Shown in pieces: positions 21,481-32,128 of a stretch of 55,466 nt of DNA; position 1 is the stretch's first letter, and each line of letters starts with the position of its first letter. Made by a program: the position numbers and the translations under genes. Under the pieces are notes generated by a model, which saw only the letters and a program-made list of their open reading frames with translations, did not search any database and had not been told where the DNA came from. Origin of the DNA: an uncultured Solirubrobacteraceae bacterium (GTDB taxonomy: Bacteria > Actinomycetota > Thermoleophilia > Solirubrobacterales > Solirubrobacteraceae); the NCBI GenBank assembly GCA_902806175.1, contig CADCVQ010000119.1, forward strand, positions 1 to 55,466, given 5' to 3'.

Positions 21481-22104
21481 CTAGGAGCCGCGCGCGACGT
21501 TCGTGGCGTTCACGAACGCGCCCTGCTGCTCGACGACCTGTGCGTCGGCCTGCTCGAGGCGAAGCGTTCGGCCCGCGTCCTCGGGAGCCGGGCGCAGCTC
21601 GCCTTCGAGGTTCACACGGTCGCCGGCGGCCGGCCGGAAGTCGGCCGCCGTCTCGTTCTCGCCGACGTCGCCACCGAACTCGACGTACACGCGGTCCTGC
21701 TCGGAGGTGCCGACGAAGAAGCCCTCGTCCTCGACCACCGAGAGCACCTCGAGGTCGCGGCCGGTGACCTGCTCGCCGACGGCGCTGCCGAACGTCGCGG
21801 CGCTGGCGCCCAGCAGCGACTGCTTGCCGGCGCCGACCAGGCTGCCCTGGCCCGCGCCACCTGCCGCGGCTGCGCCGTTGCCGGCACCGCTCGTCGCGCC
21901 ACTCTGCCCGGCCGGGGTCGCGGCCGCCGGTGCGGCCTTCTTGTCGTCACCGCCGCTGAGCAGCGCGATCAGCACGCCGATCACGAGCAGCAGCAGGAGC
22001 GCGAGCAGCAGCCACTTCAGCCAGCCGCCCTTGCCCGTGCCCTTGGTCGCGCCGCGATCGCCGATGCTGCGCGCGCCGACCTGATCTGGCCGTGAGGTCG
22101 CCAT
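21481..22104 (-). CDS. Membrane-anchored protein, predicted beta-rich extracellular domain
   Basis: A 207-residue protein with a basic N-terminus, one transmembrane helix (GGWLKWLLLALLLLLVIGVLI region, about residues 27-50), a long Gly/Ala-rich linker and a C-terminal beta-rich domain (VLSVVEDEGFFVGTSEQDRV, then DRVNLEGELRPAPED) that looks like an OB-type fold. The function is unknown. Its ATG overlaps the TGA of the PRC/DUF2382 gene upstream (TGATG), so the pair is translationally coupled and probably works together. Confidence 0.75.
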   Translation of the reverse strand: MATSRPDQVGARSIGDRGATKGTGKGGWLKWLLLALLLLLVIGVLIALLSGGDDKKAAPAAATPAGQSGATSGAGNGAAAAGGAGQGSLVGAGKQSLLGASAATFGSAVGEQVTGRDLEVLSVVEDEGFFVGTSEQDRVYVEFGGDVGENETAADFRPAAGDRVNLEGELRPAPEDAGRTLRLEQADAQVVEQQGAFVNATNVARGS

Positions 22105-23006
22105 CAGCGCGTCCTCGACTCGTCGACGCCCTGGACCTCGATCTGCTCCTTGCGGATCTCGTCGGTCACCGTCTGCTCGTCGGTCACGACCTCCTTGCCC
22201 ATGCGCACCCGCTCCTTGGGCACGACGCGCTTCTCGACGACGGGCTCCTCCTCGTAGAGCACGACCTCGTGCTCCTCCTCGGAGATCGGCGGGCCGTCCA
22301 TCGCCTCGCCGACATCGGCGTCGGTGACCGGCTCGCGCTCGACGCGGACCTCCTCGCGCTGCACCGGCACCGTCGTCTGCACGTGCTCGGTGACGACGTA
22401 CTTGCGCAGCCGCGCGCGGCCGACCGGGGCGGCAGCCTTCCCGACGTGCAGCTCCTCCTCGGAGCGCGTCATCGCGTCGTCGGTCGTCGGGCCGCTCACG
22501 TCGTGGCCGACGGGCTCTCGCGGCGGCGGCGGTGCCTGCTGCACGGGCGCGGGGGGCGGCGGTGCCTGCTGCACGGGCGCGGGGGGCGGCGGCGCCGGCG
22601 GCGGTGCCTGCGCTACCGGCGCGACCTGCTCGACCGGCACCTCGATCGCGTCGTCCTCGTACTCGGGCAGGCCGCTGCCCGAGCGCGACCCGCCGTACAC
22701 GAGGCCGTAGTGGTCATAGAGCTGCTCTTCCTCGCTCTGGCTGAGCTCGCCCTCGGGCTTGGCCGTCGGCGCGGACTTGATCGTCGCCTTGTCGTACGGG
22801 ACGCGGACGCCCTGTCCATGACGTTCGGCCTCGGCCAGCGGCACGAAGCTCACGCCGCCGAACGCGCCGGTGCTGACCGCCAGCCACTCGGGCTCGTCGG
22901 TCTCGGCGTCGAGGTAGATGTCCTTGATCGTGCCGACCTTGTCGAGGTCGGCGCCGGTGAGATCCTGGCCGATCCAGTTCTCGACCTCTTGGATGCTGTG
23001 TCGCAT
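22104..23006 (-). CDS. PRC-barrel and DUF2382 domain protein (copy 2)
   Basis: A 300-residue paralogue of the 20435-21178 protein. It has the N-terminal PRC barrel (GQDLTGADLDKVGTIKDIYL ... EPEWLAVSTGAFG) and the charged DUF2382 domain (VPVQREEVRVEREPV, EEEHEVVLYEEEPVVEKRVV). Between them is a proline-rich linker containing PPPAPVQQA twice, encoded by a near-perfect 31-nt tandem DNA repeat around 22530-22595, which can change length by slippage. The ATG is at 23006. A hairpin at 23049-23076 precedes it. Confidence 0.88.
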   Translation of the reverse strand: MRHSIQEVENWIGQDLTGADLDKVGTIKDIYLDAETDEPEWLAVSTGAFGGVSFVPLAEAERHGQGVRVPYDKATIKSAPTAKPEGELSQSEEEQLYDHYGLVYGGSRSGSGLPEYEDDAIEVPVEQVAPVAQAPPPAPPPPAPVQQAPPPPAPVQQAPPPPREPVGHDVSGPTTDDAMTRSEEELHVGKAAAPVGRARLRKYVVTEHVQTTVPVQREEVRVEREPVTDADVGEAMDGPPISEEEHEVVLYEEEPVVEKRVVPKERVRMGKEVVTDEQTVTDEIRKEQIEVQGVDESRTR

Positions 23007-23965: not shown

Positions 23966-24213
23966 GCTTGCGCACTCCTCGGGGTTGAGAATCCGTGTTG
24001 CAACGCGGTTCCCACCGCCGGCAGCATCCGACACCTTCTGTCTAAGGTCTGTCCAGCTTATTCTCGGAATGCTCGGCAAGCGCGGCGCGCAGCCCCTCGC
24101 TTGCGACCTCGGGCGGTGGGTCGAGGTCGCGGTCGGTGAGCGGGCCGAAGCAACACCGCGCCGTCGTAGCCGCGCGGCGGCGGCGGACGGCGGGTATGGT
24201 CGCGACACGAGCC

Positions 24214-25704
24214 GTGGCCGGCACACCGATTGATCGTCGAGAGTTGCTCTTGCGGGGCGCCGCCGCCGCGGCGGCTGCCGCCGCCGCGCGGGTGGACGTG
24301 GGGGTGAGCCGCGCGCAGCTTCGGCCGGCAGCCGTGCGGCGCCTGGACGCCGCGGTGCGCGGGGCGGTCGCGGTGCCGGGGCGCGCGTCGTATGAGAATG
24401 CGCGGCGCGTCTACCAGCTGGCGGGGCCGCGGCCGCGGCCGCTGGCGGTCGTCACGGTGCGCGACAGCACCGACGTCGAGGCGCTCATGCGCTGGGCGGC
24501 GCGCGAGGACGTCGCGGTCGTCGCGCGGTCCGGCGGGCACTCCTACATCCGCCAGTCGGGCGGGTCGGGCGCCGTCGTGGCGGATCTCTCGCGGCTGCGC
24601 AACGTGCGGGTGGCGAGCGCGGCCGCCGAGGTCGAGGTCGGCGGCGGCGTGCAGTTGATCGACCTCAACCGCGCGCTGGCGGCGCGGGGCGCGCTCGTGC
24701 CGACCGGCTCGTGCCCGTCGGTCGGGGTCGGCGGGCTGACGCTCGGCGGCGGGATGGGATTGTCGGCGCGGCGACTCGGGTTGACGTGCGACCGCTTGGT
24801 CGCGGCGACGATCGTGACCGCCGACGGCCGCCGCCGGCGCGTCGGCGCGCGCTCCGACGAGGACCTGTTCTGGGCGCTGCGCGGCGGCGGCGGCAGCTTC
24901 GGCGTCGTGACGTCGCTGCGCTTTGCGGTGCATCGCGCGTCGCGCGCGGCGTGGGCGTCCATGTCGCTGCCGTGGGCGCACGCCGACGAGGCGCTCGCGC
25001 GCTGGCAGGAGCTTGCGCCGGCGGCGCCGCGCGCGCTGACGGCGATCCTCTCGCTGTCGGCGGGCGGGCCGCCGCAGGTCTCGGTGATCGCGCAGCACTT
25101 CGGTTCGGAGGCCGAGCTGCGGCGCCTGCTCGCACCGCTGGCGCGGATCGACGGCGCGTCGCTCAGCACCGGCGTCGACGGCCTGCTCGGCCTCGCGCGG
25201 CGCTGGGCAGGGTGCCTCGACGGCCCGCTCGCGGCGTGTCACACGCAGGGCACCGCCCGCGGCGGCACGCTGCAGCGCTCCTCGTTCGCCGCATCGTCGA
25301 TCTACCTCGTCAGGCGCCTCGACGAGGCCGGCCGCCGCGCGCTGCTCGCGCGCGTCGCGAGCCGTTCGGGGTCGGGCACCGTGATCCTCGACGCCTACGG
25401 CGGCGCGATCAACGCCGTCGCGGCCGACGCGACGGCCTTCGTGCACCGCGACGTGCTGGCGTCGGCGCAGGTGCTCAGCTACCACGCGCCCGGTGCCGGC
25501 GGCGAGGCGCGGACGTGGGTGCGCGGCACGCGCGCAGCGCTGGAGCGCCACGGGGCGCGCGGCGCGTACGCAAACTACGCCGACGCGCGGCTGGAGAACT
25601 TCGAGCGCGAGTACTGGGGCGCGAACCGCACGCGGCTGCGGGAGGTCAAGCGGCGGGTGGATCCCGATGGGCGGCTGGTGTTCCCGCAGGCGGTCGGCAC
25701 GTAG
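24214..25704 (+). CDS. Tat-exported FAD-binding oxidase (BBE family)
   Basis: A 496-residue flavoenzyme of the vanillyl-alcohol-oxidase/berberine-bridge type, which oxidises alcohols, sugars or alkaloid-like compounds with oxygen. The N-terminus [20 protein letters not shown] is a Tat-like signal. The FAD site shows ARSGGHSY, whose histidine normally carries FAD covalently, and GSCPSVGVGGLTLGGGMG, whose cysteine allows a second covalent bond. The C-terminal BBE domain ends YANYADARLENFEREYWGAN and the terminal FPQ. GTG 24214 is favoured because a TATGGT -10-like box overlaps the ATG at 24196; that ATG is the alternative. Confidence 0.87.
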   Translation: MAGTPIDRRELLLRGAAAAAAAAAARVDVGVSRAQLRPAAVRRLDAAVRGAVAVPGRASYENARRVYQLAGPRPRPLAVVTVRDSTDVEALMRWAAREDVAVVARSGGHSYIRQSGGSGAVVADLSRLRNVRVASAAAEVEVGGGVQLIDLNRALAARGALVPTGSCPSVGVGGLTLGGGMGLSARRLGLTCDRLVAATIVTADGRRRRVGARSDEDLFWALRGGGGSFGVVTSLRFAVHRASRAAWASMSLPWAHADEALARWQELAPAAPRALTAILSLSAGGPPQVSVIAQHFGSEAELRRLLAPLARIDGASLSTGVDGLLGLARRWAGCLDGPLAACHTQGTARGGTLQRSSFAASSIYLVRRLDEAGRRALLARVASRSGSGTVILDAYGGAINAVAADATAFVHRDVLASAQVLSYHAPGAGGEARTWVRGTRAALERHGARGAYANYADARLENFEREYWGANRTRLREVKRRVDPDGRLVFPQAVGT

Positions 25705-25760: not shown

Positions 25761-28700
25761 ATGGGCATCATGCGCGATCGCCTCGAGCCGTACCTCTGCG
25801 ACCTGCACCGCGCCTGGCTGGCAGACGATCCTGAGGAGCGCTTCAAGGAGCAGCCCGGGAGCCTTCTCTTTTTCGACATCTCGGGGTTCACGCCGCTCAC
25901 CGAGCGCCTCGCGAAGCGCGGCAAGGCCGGCGTCGAGCAGCTCATCTCGACGCTCAACGGCGTCGTCGCGCCGCTGGTCAGCACCGCCGGCGCGCTCGGC
26001 GGCGACACGCTGAAGTTCGGCGGCGACGCGCTGCTGCTGCTCTTTCGCGGCGAGCAGCACGAACGGCGCGCTTGCGCTGCAGCGTTCGACATGCAGGCCG
26101 CGATGAAGCCGTTTCGCAGGATGAAGACCGACGCCGGGATCGTGTCCCTGCGCGCGTCGGCAGCTGTTGCGTCAGGGCCCGTCCACCTCTTCCTCGTCGG
26201 CGACCGCTTCCGGGAGCTGGTGGTGGCAGGACCCACCACGAGCGAGGTGATGGGCCTCGAAAGCACCGCGAACGCCGGCGAGGTGCTGCTCGGCCGGGCC
26301 ACGTGCGCCGCGCTCGACAGCACCTGCCACGCCGCCGGCCACGACCGCGCGGTCATGCGGCTCGCCACGCGGCCGGATGTCACGCAAGCGCCGCCGGCGC
26401 CCGCGCCGTCGGTCGACCCCGCACAGGGCCTGCCCGCCGCGCTGCACGATCACCTCGGTCCCGAAGCGGAGAGCGAGCACCGCCAGGTGACCGTCGGCTT
26501 CGCCCAATTCCGGGGGCTCGATGAGCTGATGGCGCGCGCGGGCCCGGCCGCCGCCGCGGACGAGCTGGACGCGCTCGTCACCCGCGCGCAGAAGTCCTTC
26601 GACGACCACGGCGTCACGTTCCTGGCCACCGACGCCGATCGCGCCGCGGGCAAGCTGTTCGTGGTCACCGGCGCGCCGACCGCCTCGACAGACGACGAGG
26701 ACCGCATGCTGTACGCGCTGCGCGAGATCGTCGCTCACGAGGGCGAGCTGCGCATGCGCGCCGGCGTCAACCGCGGCCGCGCGTTCGCCGTCCACCTGGG
26801 CGCTGCGCACCGGCGCACGTATACGACGATGGGCGACACGACGAACCTCGCCGCCCGCGTCATGGGCAAGGCTCCCGACGGGCAGGTGCTCGCGACGCGC
26901 GCGGTGCTCGACCACGCGCGCGCGCCGTTCGCGCTCGTTGCCGTCGCGCCGTTCGCGGTGAAGGGCAAGCGCATGGCGATCGATGCCGAACTCGTCGGCG
27001 AGCCGCGAGCGATCGTCGCGCGCGCGGCCGCCGACAGCCCGCTCGCCGGGCGCGAGCCGGAGCTGCGCATCCTACGCGACGCCCTCGCGGCCGCGCGGGC
27101 AGAACGAGGCCAGATCGTCGAGCTCGTCGCCGAGCCCGGGATGGGAAAGTCGCGGCTGCTCGCCGAGGTGATCTCCGAGCTCGCCGGCGCCGAGCTGCCA
27201 CAGGTCGTCATCGAGGGCGGCGCGTACGGCACGTCGACGCCGTACTTCGCGCTGCGCTCCCCGCTGCGGCGGCTGATCGCGCGCGACGGTGCGTCCGACG
27301 ACGAGCTCGCGGCCGCGCTCAGGCGCCACGTCCGCCAGCACATGCCCGACAGCGAGCCGCTGCTGCCGCTCGTCGCGATCCCGTTCGCCATCGAGCTGCC
27401 GGCGACGGCGCAGTCCGCGCGGCTTGCGAGCGACGCCGCTCGCGAGCAACTGCACTTCCTCCTGGAGCGGCTGATCGGCGCGCTGCTGCCGGCGCGCGGG
27501 ACGCTGCTGTTGATCGAGGATGCGCACTGGCTCGACGACGCTTCGAGCGAACTTCTGCGGACGGTCCTGCGGCGTGCCGATGAGCGCGGCTGGGCGGTGT
27601 TCGTCACGCGCCGACCGGTCGCGGGCGGCCTCGAGGACCTGCCGCCCACGCGCATGCGGCTCGAGCTCGCGCCGCTCGCGCCCGAGGCGGCGCGGTCGCT
27701 CGTCGTCGCAGGGGCGCAGGGAGCGCTGGCGCCGCACGTCACTGCCGCGCTCGTCGAGCGCTCGCAGGGCAACCCGCTGTTCCTGCGCGAGCTGATCGCC
27801 GCCGCGCGCGGTGGCGCCGAGCTCGACGCGCTGCCCGCGACCGTCGAGGCGCTGCTGACGGCGCGGATCGACACCCTCACGCCCGCCGACCGCCGCCTGC
27901 TGCGCCGCGCCGCGGTGCTCGGGCAGCGCTTTCCGATGTCCTGGCTGCGCGGGATGCTCGACATGCCGGAGCGCGAGCTGCACGACGCGCTCTCGCGGCT
28001 GGGCGACTTCCTCGAAGTCGAGCCGGGGCGCGTGCGCTTTCAGCACGCGCTGCAGCGCGAGGCCGCCTACGAGGCCCTGCCGTTCGAGCGCCGCCGCGCC
28101 CTGCACGCGCGCGCCGGCGACTTGATCGAGCGCGAGCTCGGCGTCGGCGCCGACGACTCGGCCGACATCCTCGCGCTGCACTTCCTGCGCGCCCAGGAGT
28201 ACGTGCGCGCCTGGAGTTACGGCCTCGCCGCGGCTGAGCACGCGCGCGAGCGCTACGCGCACGCCGACGCGGCGCAGCTGTATCGCCGGGCGCTGGAGGC
28301 GGCCCGTGCGCTGAAGCTGCCGGCGCGCGCGCTGAGCGAGGTCTACGAGGTGCTCGGCGAAGAACATGCCTGCTCCGGCGAGCTCGCCCGCGCCGAGGAG
28401 GCCTTCACGCGCGCGCGGCGACTCGCCGCGGGCGACCCGCTGCGCGAGAGCCACCTCATGCAGCGCCACGCGCGCGCCGCGATGGACGGTGGGCAGGTGT
28501 TGCGCGCGGCGCGCTGGCTGCTGCGCGGGATGCGCACGCTGGGCGGCAACCACTCGACGCTCGCCGCGGCGTGCCGCGCGACGATGGTGTCCGAGCTGGC
28601 GGGTGTTCGCGCGCGCCAGGGACGCATGGACGAGGCGATCGCGCTCGCGCGCGAGGCGATCGCGGCCGCCGAGGCGACGGGCGCCGATGCGGCGCTCGCG

Positions 28701-29582
28701 CATGCGTGCTACATCCTCGATTGGGCGCTCGTCGAGTCCGGCCGCGCCGCCGAGGCGGTGCACTCCGAGCGCGCGGTCGAGATCTACCGGCGCCTGGGCG
28801 ACCTCGACCGGGAGGCGGCCGTGCTCAACAACCTCGGCATGTTTGCCTACTACGCGGGTCGATGGGAGGACGCGGTCGCCCTCTACCGTGCCGGCGCGGA
28901 CGCGAGCACGCAGGCCGGCAACATCGGCAGCGCCGCGTTCGGTGACTGCAACATCGCCGAGGTGCTCTCCGACCAGGGGCGGCGCGAGGAGGCGCGGCCG
29001 CGCCTGGAGCGCGCGCTCGAGATCTGGCGCGCAACCGGCTACGAGTGGGGCGTCGCGTTCGCCACGGCGCTGCTCGGGCGGCTGATGGCGCGCGCCGGCG
29101 ACGGGGACACCGCGCAGCGGTTGCTGGCCGATGCGCTCGAGCGCTTTCGGGTGCTGCGCGTCAGCCCCGACGCGCTGTGGGTCGAGGCGCTGATCGGCGA
29201 GGCCCACGTGCTCGGCCGGCGCCCGCTCGAGGCGACGGCCGACGTCGAGCGGCTCGTCAGCGTTGCCGGCCGCGGTCGTCTCGGTCCGCTGCTGCACCGC
29301 GTCCGCGGCATCGCCAGAGCGCAGCTGGGCGCGCTGGAGCACGCACGCGCGGCACTCGAGGAGTCCGTCGCGGCCGCGCGCGATCGCGGCGACGAGTTCG
29401 ATCTGTTCCTGAGCCTCGACGCGCTGCAGCAGCTCGCTGTCCACGAGGGCGCGGTCGACCCGACGCTGGGTCGCGAGCGCGACGCGATCGCCGAGCGCCT
29501 CGACATCATGGCGCCGCCGCCGGTCCCGATCGCTGCGCCGGTCGCTGCTTGCGACGCCCCCGCTTCGGCGACCGGGAGCTGA
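25761..29582 (+). CDS. Tandem class III adenylyl cyclase with NTPase and TPR regions
   Basis: A 1273-residue protein. Residues about 33-200 are a cyclase domain with both metal-binding aspartates (FFDISGFT D39; KFGGDALLLLF D89) but without the transition-state Asn/Arg. Residues about 243-400 are a second cyclase domain lacking the first aspartate but holding YTTMGDTTNLAARV (N362, R366; T355 at the adenine-recognition position, the class IIIb signature). The two would make one composite active site, as in mammalian soluble adenylyl cyclase. A P-loop NTPase follows (Walker A AEPGMGKSR 457-465, Walker B LLLIEDAHW) and then about 450 residues of TPR-like helices. It probably makes cAMP on a signal sensed by the C-terminal part. 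The ATG is at 25761. Confidence 0.88.
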   Translation: MGIMRDRLEPYLCDLHRAWLADDPEERFKEQPGSLLFFDISGFTPLTERLAKRGKAGVEQLISTLNGVVAPLVSTAGALGGDTLKFGGDALLLLFRGEQHERRACAAAFDMQAAMKPFRRMKTDAGIVSLRASAAVASGPVHLFLVGDRFRELVVAGPTTSEVMGLESTANAGEVLLGRATCAALDSTCHAAGHDRAVMRLATRPDVTQAPPAPAPSVDPAQGLPAALHDHLGPEAESEHRQVTVGFAQFRGLDELMARAGPAAAADELDALVTRAQKSFDDHGVTFLATDADRAAGKLFVVTGAPTASTDDEDRMLYALREIVAHEGELRMRAGVNRGRAFAVHLGAAHRRTYTTMGDTTNLAARVMGKAPDGQVLATRAVLDHARAPFALVAVAPFAVKGKRMAIDAELVGEPRAIVARAAADSPLAGREPELRILRDALAAARAERGQIVELVAEPGMGKSRLLAEVISELAGAELPQVVIEGGAYGTSTPYFALRSPLRRLIARDGASDDELAAALRRHVRQHMPDSEPLLPLVAIPFAIELPATAQSARLASDAAREQLHFLLERLIGALLPARGTLLLIEDAHWLDDASSELLRTVLRRADERGWAVFVTRRPVAGGLEDLPPTRMRLELAPLAPEAARSLVVAGAQGALAPHVTAALVERSQGNPLFLRELIAAARGGAELDALPATVEALLTARIDTLTPADRRLLRRAAVLGQRFPMSWLRGMLDMPERELHDALSRLGDFLEVEPGRVRFQHALQREAAYEALPFERRRALHARAGDLIERELGVGADDSADILALHFLRAQEYVRAWSYGLAAAEHARERYAHADAAQLYRRALEAARALKLPARALSEVYEVLGEEHACSGELARAEEAFTRARRLAAGDPLRESHLMQRHARAAMDGGQVLRAARWLLRGMRTLGGNHSTLAAACRATMVSELAGVRARQGRMDEAIALAREAIAAAEATGADAALAHACYILDWALVESGRAAEAVHSERAVEIYRRLGDLDREAAVLNNLGMFAYYAGRWEDAVALYRAGADASTQAGNIGSAAFGDCNIAEVLSDQGRREEARPRLERALEIWRATGYEWGVAFATALLGRLMARAGDGDTAQRLLADALERFRVLRVSPDALWVEALIGEAHVLGRRPLEATADVERLVSVAGRGRLGPLLHRVRGIARAQLGALEHARAALEESVAAARDRGDEFDLFLSLDALQQLAVHEGAVDPTLGRERDAIAERLDIMAPPPVPIAAPVAACDAPASATGS

Positions 29583-31723: not shown

Positions 31724-32128
31724 GTGGACGAGGCCGAACTTCAGCAGCTACCGCTCTTCGCCGGCCTGAGCAAGCGCGAGCGCAAGCGCCTCGCGCCGCT
31801 GATCGACGAGGTCGACGTCGAGGCCGGTCGCACGCTGGCATCCGAGGGCGAGCTGGCCTACGAGCTCTTCGTCATCGAGGACGGCACCGCCGAGATCAGC
31901 CAGGCTGGCGTGCCGATCGGGGTGCTGGGACCCGGCGACTTCTTCGGTGAGATCGCCTTGCTGGACGAAGCTCGCCGCCGCACGTCGACCGTCGTCGCCA
32001 CATCGTCGATGCGCCTGGCGGTCCTGCAGGGCCACGACGTCCGCGTCATCGAGCGCGAGCTGCCCGCGGTCGCAGGCCGGATCCGCGCCGCGATCGAAGA
32101 ACGTCTGGCGGGCGACCAGCAGCGCTGA
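31724..32128 (+). CDS. Stand-alone cyclic-nucleotide-binding domain protein
   Basis: A 134-residue protein made of a single cNMP-binding domain: LPLFAGLSKRERKRLAPLID at the start, the beta-barrel (ELFVIEDGTAEIS), and a phosphate-binding cassette GDFFGEIALLDEARRRTSTV, where the Arg and Thr contact cyclic nucleotide in Crp-type proteins. There is no DNA-binding helix-turn-helix after it, unlike Crp, so it must act through a partner or as a buffer. A possible cAMP source, the tandem cyclase, is 2.1 kb away. GTG start at 31724, leaderless. Confidence 0.88.
   Translation: MDEAELQQLPLFAGLSKRERKRLAPLIDEVDVEAGRTLASEGELAYELFVIEDGTAEISQAGVPIGVLGPGDFFGEIALLDEARRRTSTVVATSSMRLAVLQGHDVRVIERELPAVAGRIRAAIEERLAGDQQR

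Follow-up and report, generated by a model that had tools for sequence, protein, structure and literature searches.

In homodimeric class III nucleotide cyclases such as CyaC and CyaB, one cyclase domain holds all the catalytic residues and each dimer has two sites. MalT-type regulators join an NTPase of the STAND type and a TPR superhelix to an output domain that binds DNA. Human soluble adenylyl cyclase (sAC, ADCY10) is a soluble single chain with two cyclase domains in tandem, C1 and C2, that form one composite site, and it carries a P-loop NTPase and TPR part at its C-terminal side. Bacterial sACs with a P-loop NTPase are credited, in passages of PMC6660944 and PMC11006738, to Roelofs and Van Haastert (2002) and Kobayashi et al. 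(2004), so that the layout itself is already known. Here we analyze a gene of this layout, P0001, in a stretch of 55,466 nucleotides (the window) of contig CADCVQ010000119.1 from an uncultured Solirubrobacteraceae bacterium. It is likely to encode a bacterial enzyme of the sAC type, soluble and belonging to the class III nucleotide cyclases, with a composite C1-C2 site, gating through a STAND and TPR part, and probably cyclic AMP (cAMP) as its product. Bacterial sACs that share the C1/C2 split and the predicted fold bear on whether bicarbonate control arose before or after the eukaryotic gene; also at stake is whether a whole bacterial subfamily has changed substrate. What our alignments add to the known layout is the loss as a block of two lysines, K334 and K144 of human sAC, together with a fixed aspartate, and the absence of the bicarbonate arginine R176 from all bacterial members examined. 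We found no description of this 69-sequence subfamily in the open-licence PMC literature, although one may have been published.

A predicted catalytic site divided between two domains

A sequence-only reading of the gene had proposed that C1 keeps just the metal aspartates and C2 just the transition-state residues and a threonine. Alignment to human sAC (PDB 4clf_A, native numbering confirmed against the alignment) bears this out: C1 has D39 and D89, with S161 and G165 at the positions matching N412 and R416, while C2 has N362, R366 and T355, with Q249 where the first metal aspartate would be (Table 1). The split is conserved. Among 107 distinct bacterial sequences, C1 never has both the asparagine and the arginine (0/107), and an aspartate stands at the C2 metal position 298 in just one. 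The same alignments brought up two substitutions that the earlier reading had not mentioned, A289 for K334 and S133 for K144; at A289 the profile alignment is gap-free, and at M164, which replaces R176, both the query and the profile alignments are. According to Table 1 of PMC12867704 and a passage of PMC12250328, K334 recognizes the base through a water, K144 is a pyrophosphate receptor and R176 serves bicarbonate. Hence, the base-recognition pair K334/T405 reads A289/T355 in P0001, with the lysine gone, and the bicarbonate pair K95/R176 is incomplete, with K85 kept and M164 in place of the arginine.

Among solved structures, human ADCY10 matches best both by sequence and by predicted fold, and we therefore predict that C1 and C2 form one site. 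In the PDB sequence search it is found at E 2.4e-16, and a profile of 18 sequences scores 187 bits against it, colinear over C1 and C2, versus 117 bits for the top single-domain cyclase; identity across the catalytic part is about 24%. The AlphaFold2 model of C1-C2 (predicted local distance difference test, pLDDT, 92.6; predicted template modelling score, pTM, 0.91) pairs the two domains in a way that would let them share a site, which is what the sequence-only reading had asked of a structure prediction. With both domains together, the model fits sAC structures at up to Z 41.8, over 393 residues and at 2.5 A, residues 1-413 lying on residues 9-463 of the chain. All sAC entries lie between Z 38.8 and 41.8, the membrane cyclase AC9 reaches at most 37.9 and single domains about 23. 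Because AC9 comes so close, the fold by itself leaves only a small margin between sAC and membrane cyclases, and the scores from sequence discriminate more clearly. CyaC and CyaB have a similar domain fold (Z about 22-23), but in P0001 the catalytic residues are spread over two domains. P0001 thus has in common with ADCY10 the soluble single-chain tandem with one predicted composite site, the aspartates D47 and D99 in C1, the residues T405, N412 and R416 in C2, and K95; it differs in having A289, S133 and M164 for K334, K144 and R176.

The sAC-like layout with NTPase and TPR regions, also part of the sequence-only reading, was recovered too: in a Pfam scan of the 1273-residue protein, AAA_16, TPR_12 and a pair of Guanylate_cyc stretches passed the cut-offs, and the match to ADCY10 is colinear over both cyclase domains. 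For the C-terminal P-loop NTPase and TPR part, the likeness to ADCY10 is one of layout. This part had no sequence match in the PDB at E <= 0.001, whereas by fold the model of residues 415-1273 (pLDDT 90.5) resembles MalT and STAND proteins: MalT domain III (1hz4, Z 29.3), the STAND protein 6mfv and, over the NTPase, the maltose-system chain 8bob_C (Z 21.6). It shares with them the NTPase followed by a TPR superhelix, and differs in its output, a pair of cyclase domains instead of a DNA-binding one. C2 and the NTPase also match the TOMM system kinase/cyclase fusion family TIGR03903 (best stretch 234-843). Membership in that family is not supported, as the score of 159 bits is far below the curated cut-off of 705.75 and the Pfam scan shows no kinase domain.

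Bacterial relatives and descent

Relatives were gathered from three sources. In a phylum sample, 31 of 396 genomes had a match at E <= 1e-20, and in a family sample 8 of 101 had one at E <= 1e-15 (own genome included in both), so that the distribution is patchy. A scan of contigs, seeded with patterns holding the D47/D99 residues, supplied the best 80 of 466 candidate stretches encoding a relative, from Actinomycetota, Chloroflexota, Acidobacteriota, Delongbacteria and others. In 105 of 109 loci a single frame encodes both C1 and C2. In the other four (L031, L034, L035 and L104) they lie in separate reading frames, through a frameshift, a split gene or an assembly error. These four were excluded from the counts, as were two contig fragments (L152, L153), five duplicates (112 sequences becoming 107) and second copies within a genome that have no locus of their own.

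Across the 107 sequences, D47, D99 and R416 are found in all and N412 in 104; K95 is kept in 88, T405 in 75, K144 in 22, K334 in 15 and R176 in none. The figures for D47 and D99 are biased by the scan patterns that supplied the 80 loci; still, both are present in 33 of 33 pattern-free sequences (the query, 26 phylum-sample loci and six family-sample loci). In alignment A1, mean column identity is 49%, against which the near-invariant catalytic positions stand out. A Walker A motif follows the cyclase domains in 99 of the 101 relatives with enough sequence, and its G460, G462 and K463 are invariant in alignment A2. Three members (L054, L070 and L078) have alanine at the N412 position, glutamate at 334 and histidine at 144, and may represent a further variant.

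The two domains have been inherited as a pair in common with human sAC. We built a tree of 76 rows from 27 two-domain members (out of 106 bacterial ones), the human protein and 20 single-domain cyclases (out of 33 loci) from the window's own bacterial family. The C1 rows form one branch with human C1 (100/99) and the C2 rows one branch with human C2 (99/94), each separate from the 20 single-domain cyclases. As each branch is joined by its human counterpart, the division of labour is an inheritance in common with human sAC, as a phylogeny with ADCY10 had been expected to tell. The approximately unbiased (AU) test does not reject a tree that unites all C1 and all C2 rows to the exclusion of the single-domain cyclases (p 0.263). 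In the best tree, human C2 adjoins an Anaerolineales member (98/91), and the branch of human C1 is long. This tree favours placing human sAC within the bacterial family, but the AU tests fail to reject its placement outside the bacterial rows (C1 p 0.24, C2 p 0.145) and we therefore do not claim nesting.

A concatenated C1-C2 tree of 108 rows, made by a quick method, places P0001 in a set of 69 rows (support 100), a subfamily that is mainly actinobacterial, and human sAC in a set of 25 rows (support 97) that it shares with Chloroflexota, Acidobacteriota and others. By these sequence comparisons, the nearer bacterial kin of human sAC are among the Chloroflexota and Acidobacteriota, and P0001 is therefore not the best witness to the origin of ADCY10. 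The idea that this gene is informative on the evolution of the C1/C2 division holds for the common descent of the domains, and not for P0001 as the best candidate for that origin. Relatives of the Chloroflexota and Acidobacteriota type (L103, L088, L107) have the same C1-C2-NTPase layout and the same split of catalytic residues; they differ in that most of them retain E403, a lysine or arginine at 144 and, at 334, a residue with a long side chain. In the 69-row subfamily K334 and K144 are absent (0/69 each), the D291 column is aspartate throughout (69/69), T405 is kept in 46 and position 403 is threonine in 55. In the other 38 rows, 334 is lysine, glutamine or arginine in 31, 144 is lysine or arginine in 30 and E403 is kept in 31. 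The subfamily of P0001 is therefore different as a block.

Substrate, control and output

Activity, product, STAND gating and effector are what we infer from these features, along the following lines. C1 and C2 of a single chain would pair as a pseudo-heterodimer whose interface forms one catalytic site. There, D39 and D89 of C1 would hold the two metal ions, the ribose and the alpha-phosphate would be positioned by N362 and R366 of C2, and T355 would touch the base. The mirror-image second site would be dead, since either domain lacks the residues of the other half. By analogy with STAND proteins, the MalT-like NTPase and TPR superhelix would most likely gate catalysis in response to a ligand or partner that they sense. 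The product, probably cAMP, would be read by the cyclic-nucleotide-monophosphate (cNMP)-binding proteins of the same cell, and enrichment in such proteins suggests a cyclic nucleotide output. Of 12 cNMP-binding matches across the genome, one falls within the window, in a stand-alone protein encoded 2.1 kb downstream of the cyclase gene. Their density is 2.98 per Mb in 10 carrier genomes from the phylum sample versus 1.14 in 50 non-carriers (Mann-Whitney p 3e-5, with kinship ignored), and a cNMP-binding open reading frame (ORF) is found nearby in 7 of 79 flanked loci, with 1.1 expected. Some points weigh against this view. K334 and K144, substrate lysines of human sAC, are both gone from P0001, which makes the use of ATP uncertain. 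Also, the excess in the flanks only reaches p 0.016-0.046 at the highest cNMP-domain density of carriers, the match in one of these seven ORFs spans just 62 residues, and several loci belong to Chloroflexota kin.

The lost lysines could have another meaning, that of an active tandem cyclase preferring a nucleotide other than ATP (GTP, for instance, with cyclic GMP as the product), in a subfamily that has rebuilt its base pocket. The complete loss of both lysines and the invariant aspartate two columns past K334 speak for it, as does glutamate at 334 in 16 of the 107 members, 13 of which have serine at 405: a passage of PMC7384201 describes glutamate paired with cysteine or serine at the base positions of guanylate cyclases, and a title in the reference list of PMC6660944 presents the Dictyostelium sAC homologue as a guanylyl cyclase. 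P0001 itself, however, has A289 and T355 instead of glutamate and serine, two thirds of its subfamily retain T405, and the pairing comes down to at most four independent pairs (one on starred branches; p 1), all of which leaves a preference for another nucleotide unlikely, if worth keeping in mind. Covariation of Glu334 and Ser405 was thus discarded, since counts of 13/16 versus 9/91 hide too few independent pairs; members with Glu334 include L039, L044, L047, L051, L018, L025, L061, L063, L069 and L075. In a wider version, the subfamily, with its D/D/N/R set kept, both lysines swapped and a new pocket with D291, would have some other cyclic nucleotide than cAMP as its product, the Glu/Ser members would be guanylyl cyclases, and the bicarbonate arginine would be a late eukaryotic invention, as no bacterial member examined has it; we give this a low probability. 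The loss of the two substrate lysines could also be read as the mark of a pseudo-cyclase without catalysis, in which bound ATP would serve a sensor or scaffold role, and among the fold matches there is a "class III adenylyl cyclase-like ATP-binding protein" of P. aeruginosa (6yii, Z 27.2), whose entry title suggests an ATP-binding role; we found no paper on this entry in the open-licence PMC literature. Yet D47, D99, N412 and R416 are near-invariant while the remainder diverges, and Z 27.2 is far under the 41.8 of sAC, which makes a dead enzyme rather improbable.

The sequence-only reading had also pointed to the response to bicarbonate of mammalian sAC, and this part of it gained no support. 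A protein activated by bicarbonate (and calcium) in the mammalian manner would be consistent with the retention of K95 as K85, and a passage of PMC11006738 credits Kobayashi et al. with bicarbonate activation of bacterial adenylyl cyclases, for example in Chloroflexus. But R176, a switch residue that is freed from D99 by bicarbonate according to a passage of PMC12250328, is replaced by M164 in P0001 and missing from 107 of 107 bacterial members, and in animal sACs a neutral residue at either site goes with the loss of the bicarbonate response and a response to pH instead, as reported in a portion of PMC12867704. Since the arginine is absent here and in all bacterial relatives examined, activation of the mammalian type is not expected, and we consider it very unlikely. 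A defence cyclase of the Pycsar type can be proposed from the cNMP-binding gene in the vicinity and from the PycC models of PADLOC, which give partial hits to both cyclase domains (E 2.5e-7 at best). These matches are weak and partial and we judge them generic, as would be expected from PycC models being themselves class III cyclases; moreover, the cNMP-binding protein has no effector domain by Pfam, and no neighbour is conserved across 80 loci, where we found no conserved operon and the largest cluster of non-cyclase neighbours occurs in 8. A role in such defence seems very unlikely, and a sAC-type cyclase with probable cAMP output is the reading we prefer.

Gene features and neighbourhood

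Table 1. Positions in the window of the cyclase gene, its domains and key residues, and the nearby cNMP-binding gene
Feature	Positions	Strand	Basis
P0001 gene, 1273-residue C1-C2-STAND NTPase-TPR protein	25761..29582	+	open frame; start codon predicted
C1 (residues 28-186), cyclase domain with the metal half of the site	25842..26318	+	PF00211; best PDB match human ADCY10 C1, E 2.4e-16
D39, equivalent to sAC metal Asp D47	25875..25877	+	alignment to 4clf_A
K85, equivalent to sAC bicarbonate Lys K95, kept	26013..26015	+	alignment to sAC
D89, equivalent to sAC metal Asp D99	26025..26027	+	alignment to 4clf_A
S133, in place of sAC pyrophosphate-receptor Lys K144, lost	26157..26159	+	alignment; K144 function from PMC12867704 Table 1
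M164, where sAC has its bicarbonate switch Arg, R176 (lost)	26250..26252	+	gap-free alignment
C2 (residues 237-413), cyclase domain with the base and transition-state half	26469..26999	+	PF00211 238-404
A289, in place of sAC base-recognition Lys K334, lost	26625..26627	+	gap-free profile alignment
D291, two residues past lost Lys, invariant in 69-sequence subfamily	26631..26633	+	69/69
T355, equivalent to sAC adenine-contact Thr T405	26823..26825	+	alignment to sAC
N362, equivalent to sAC N412	26844..26846	+	alignment; 104/107 bacterial sequences
R366, equivalent to sAC R416	26856..26858	+	alignment; 107/107 bacterial sequences
STAND-type NTPase (AAA_16), residues 428-608	27042..27584	+	Pfam E 1.3e-19; fold match 8bob_C, Z 21.6, 368 residues
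Walker A AEPGMGKS, residues 457-464	27129..27152	+	sequence; pattern common to 99/101 relatives
TPR superhelix, residues 775-1247	28083..29501	+	TPR_12; predicted helices; MalT domain III 1hz4, Z 29.3
Stand-alone 134-residue cNMP-binding protein, possible effector	31724..32128	+	PF00027 E 7e-15, match at 31811-32044

There is no sign in the window of an operon joining the cyclase gene to its upstream neighbours, a flavin adenine dinucleotide (FAD)-binding/BBE oxidase gene directly before it (24136-25704, + strand) and, farther away, a gene for a PRC-barrel and DUF2382 protein (22104-23006, - strand). The frame of the cyclase gene is open farther upstream than the predicted start codon, but that stretch overlaps the FAD/BBE gene.

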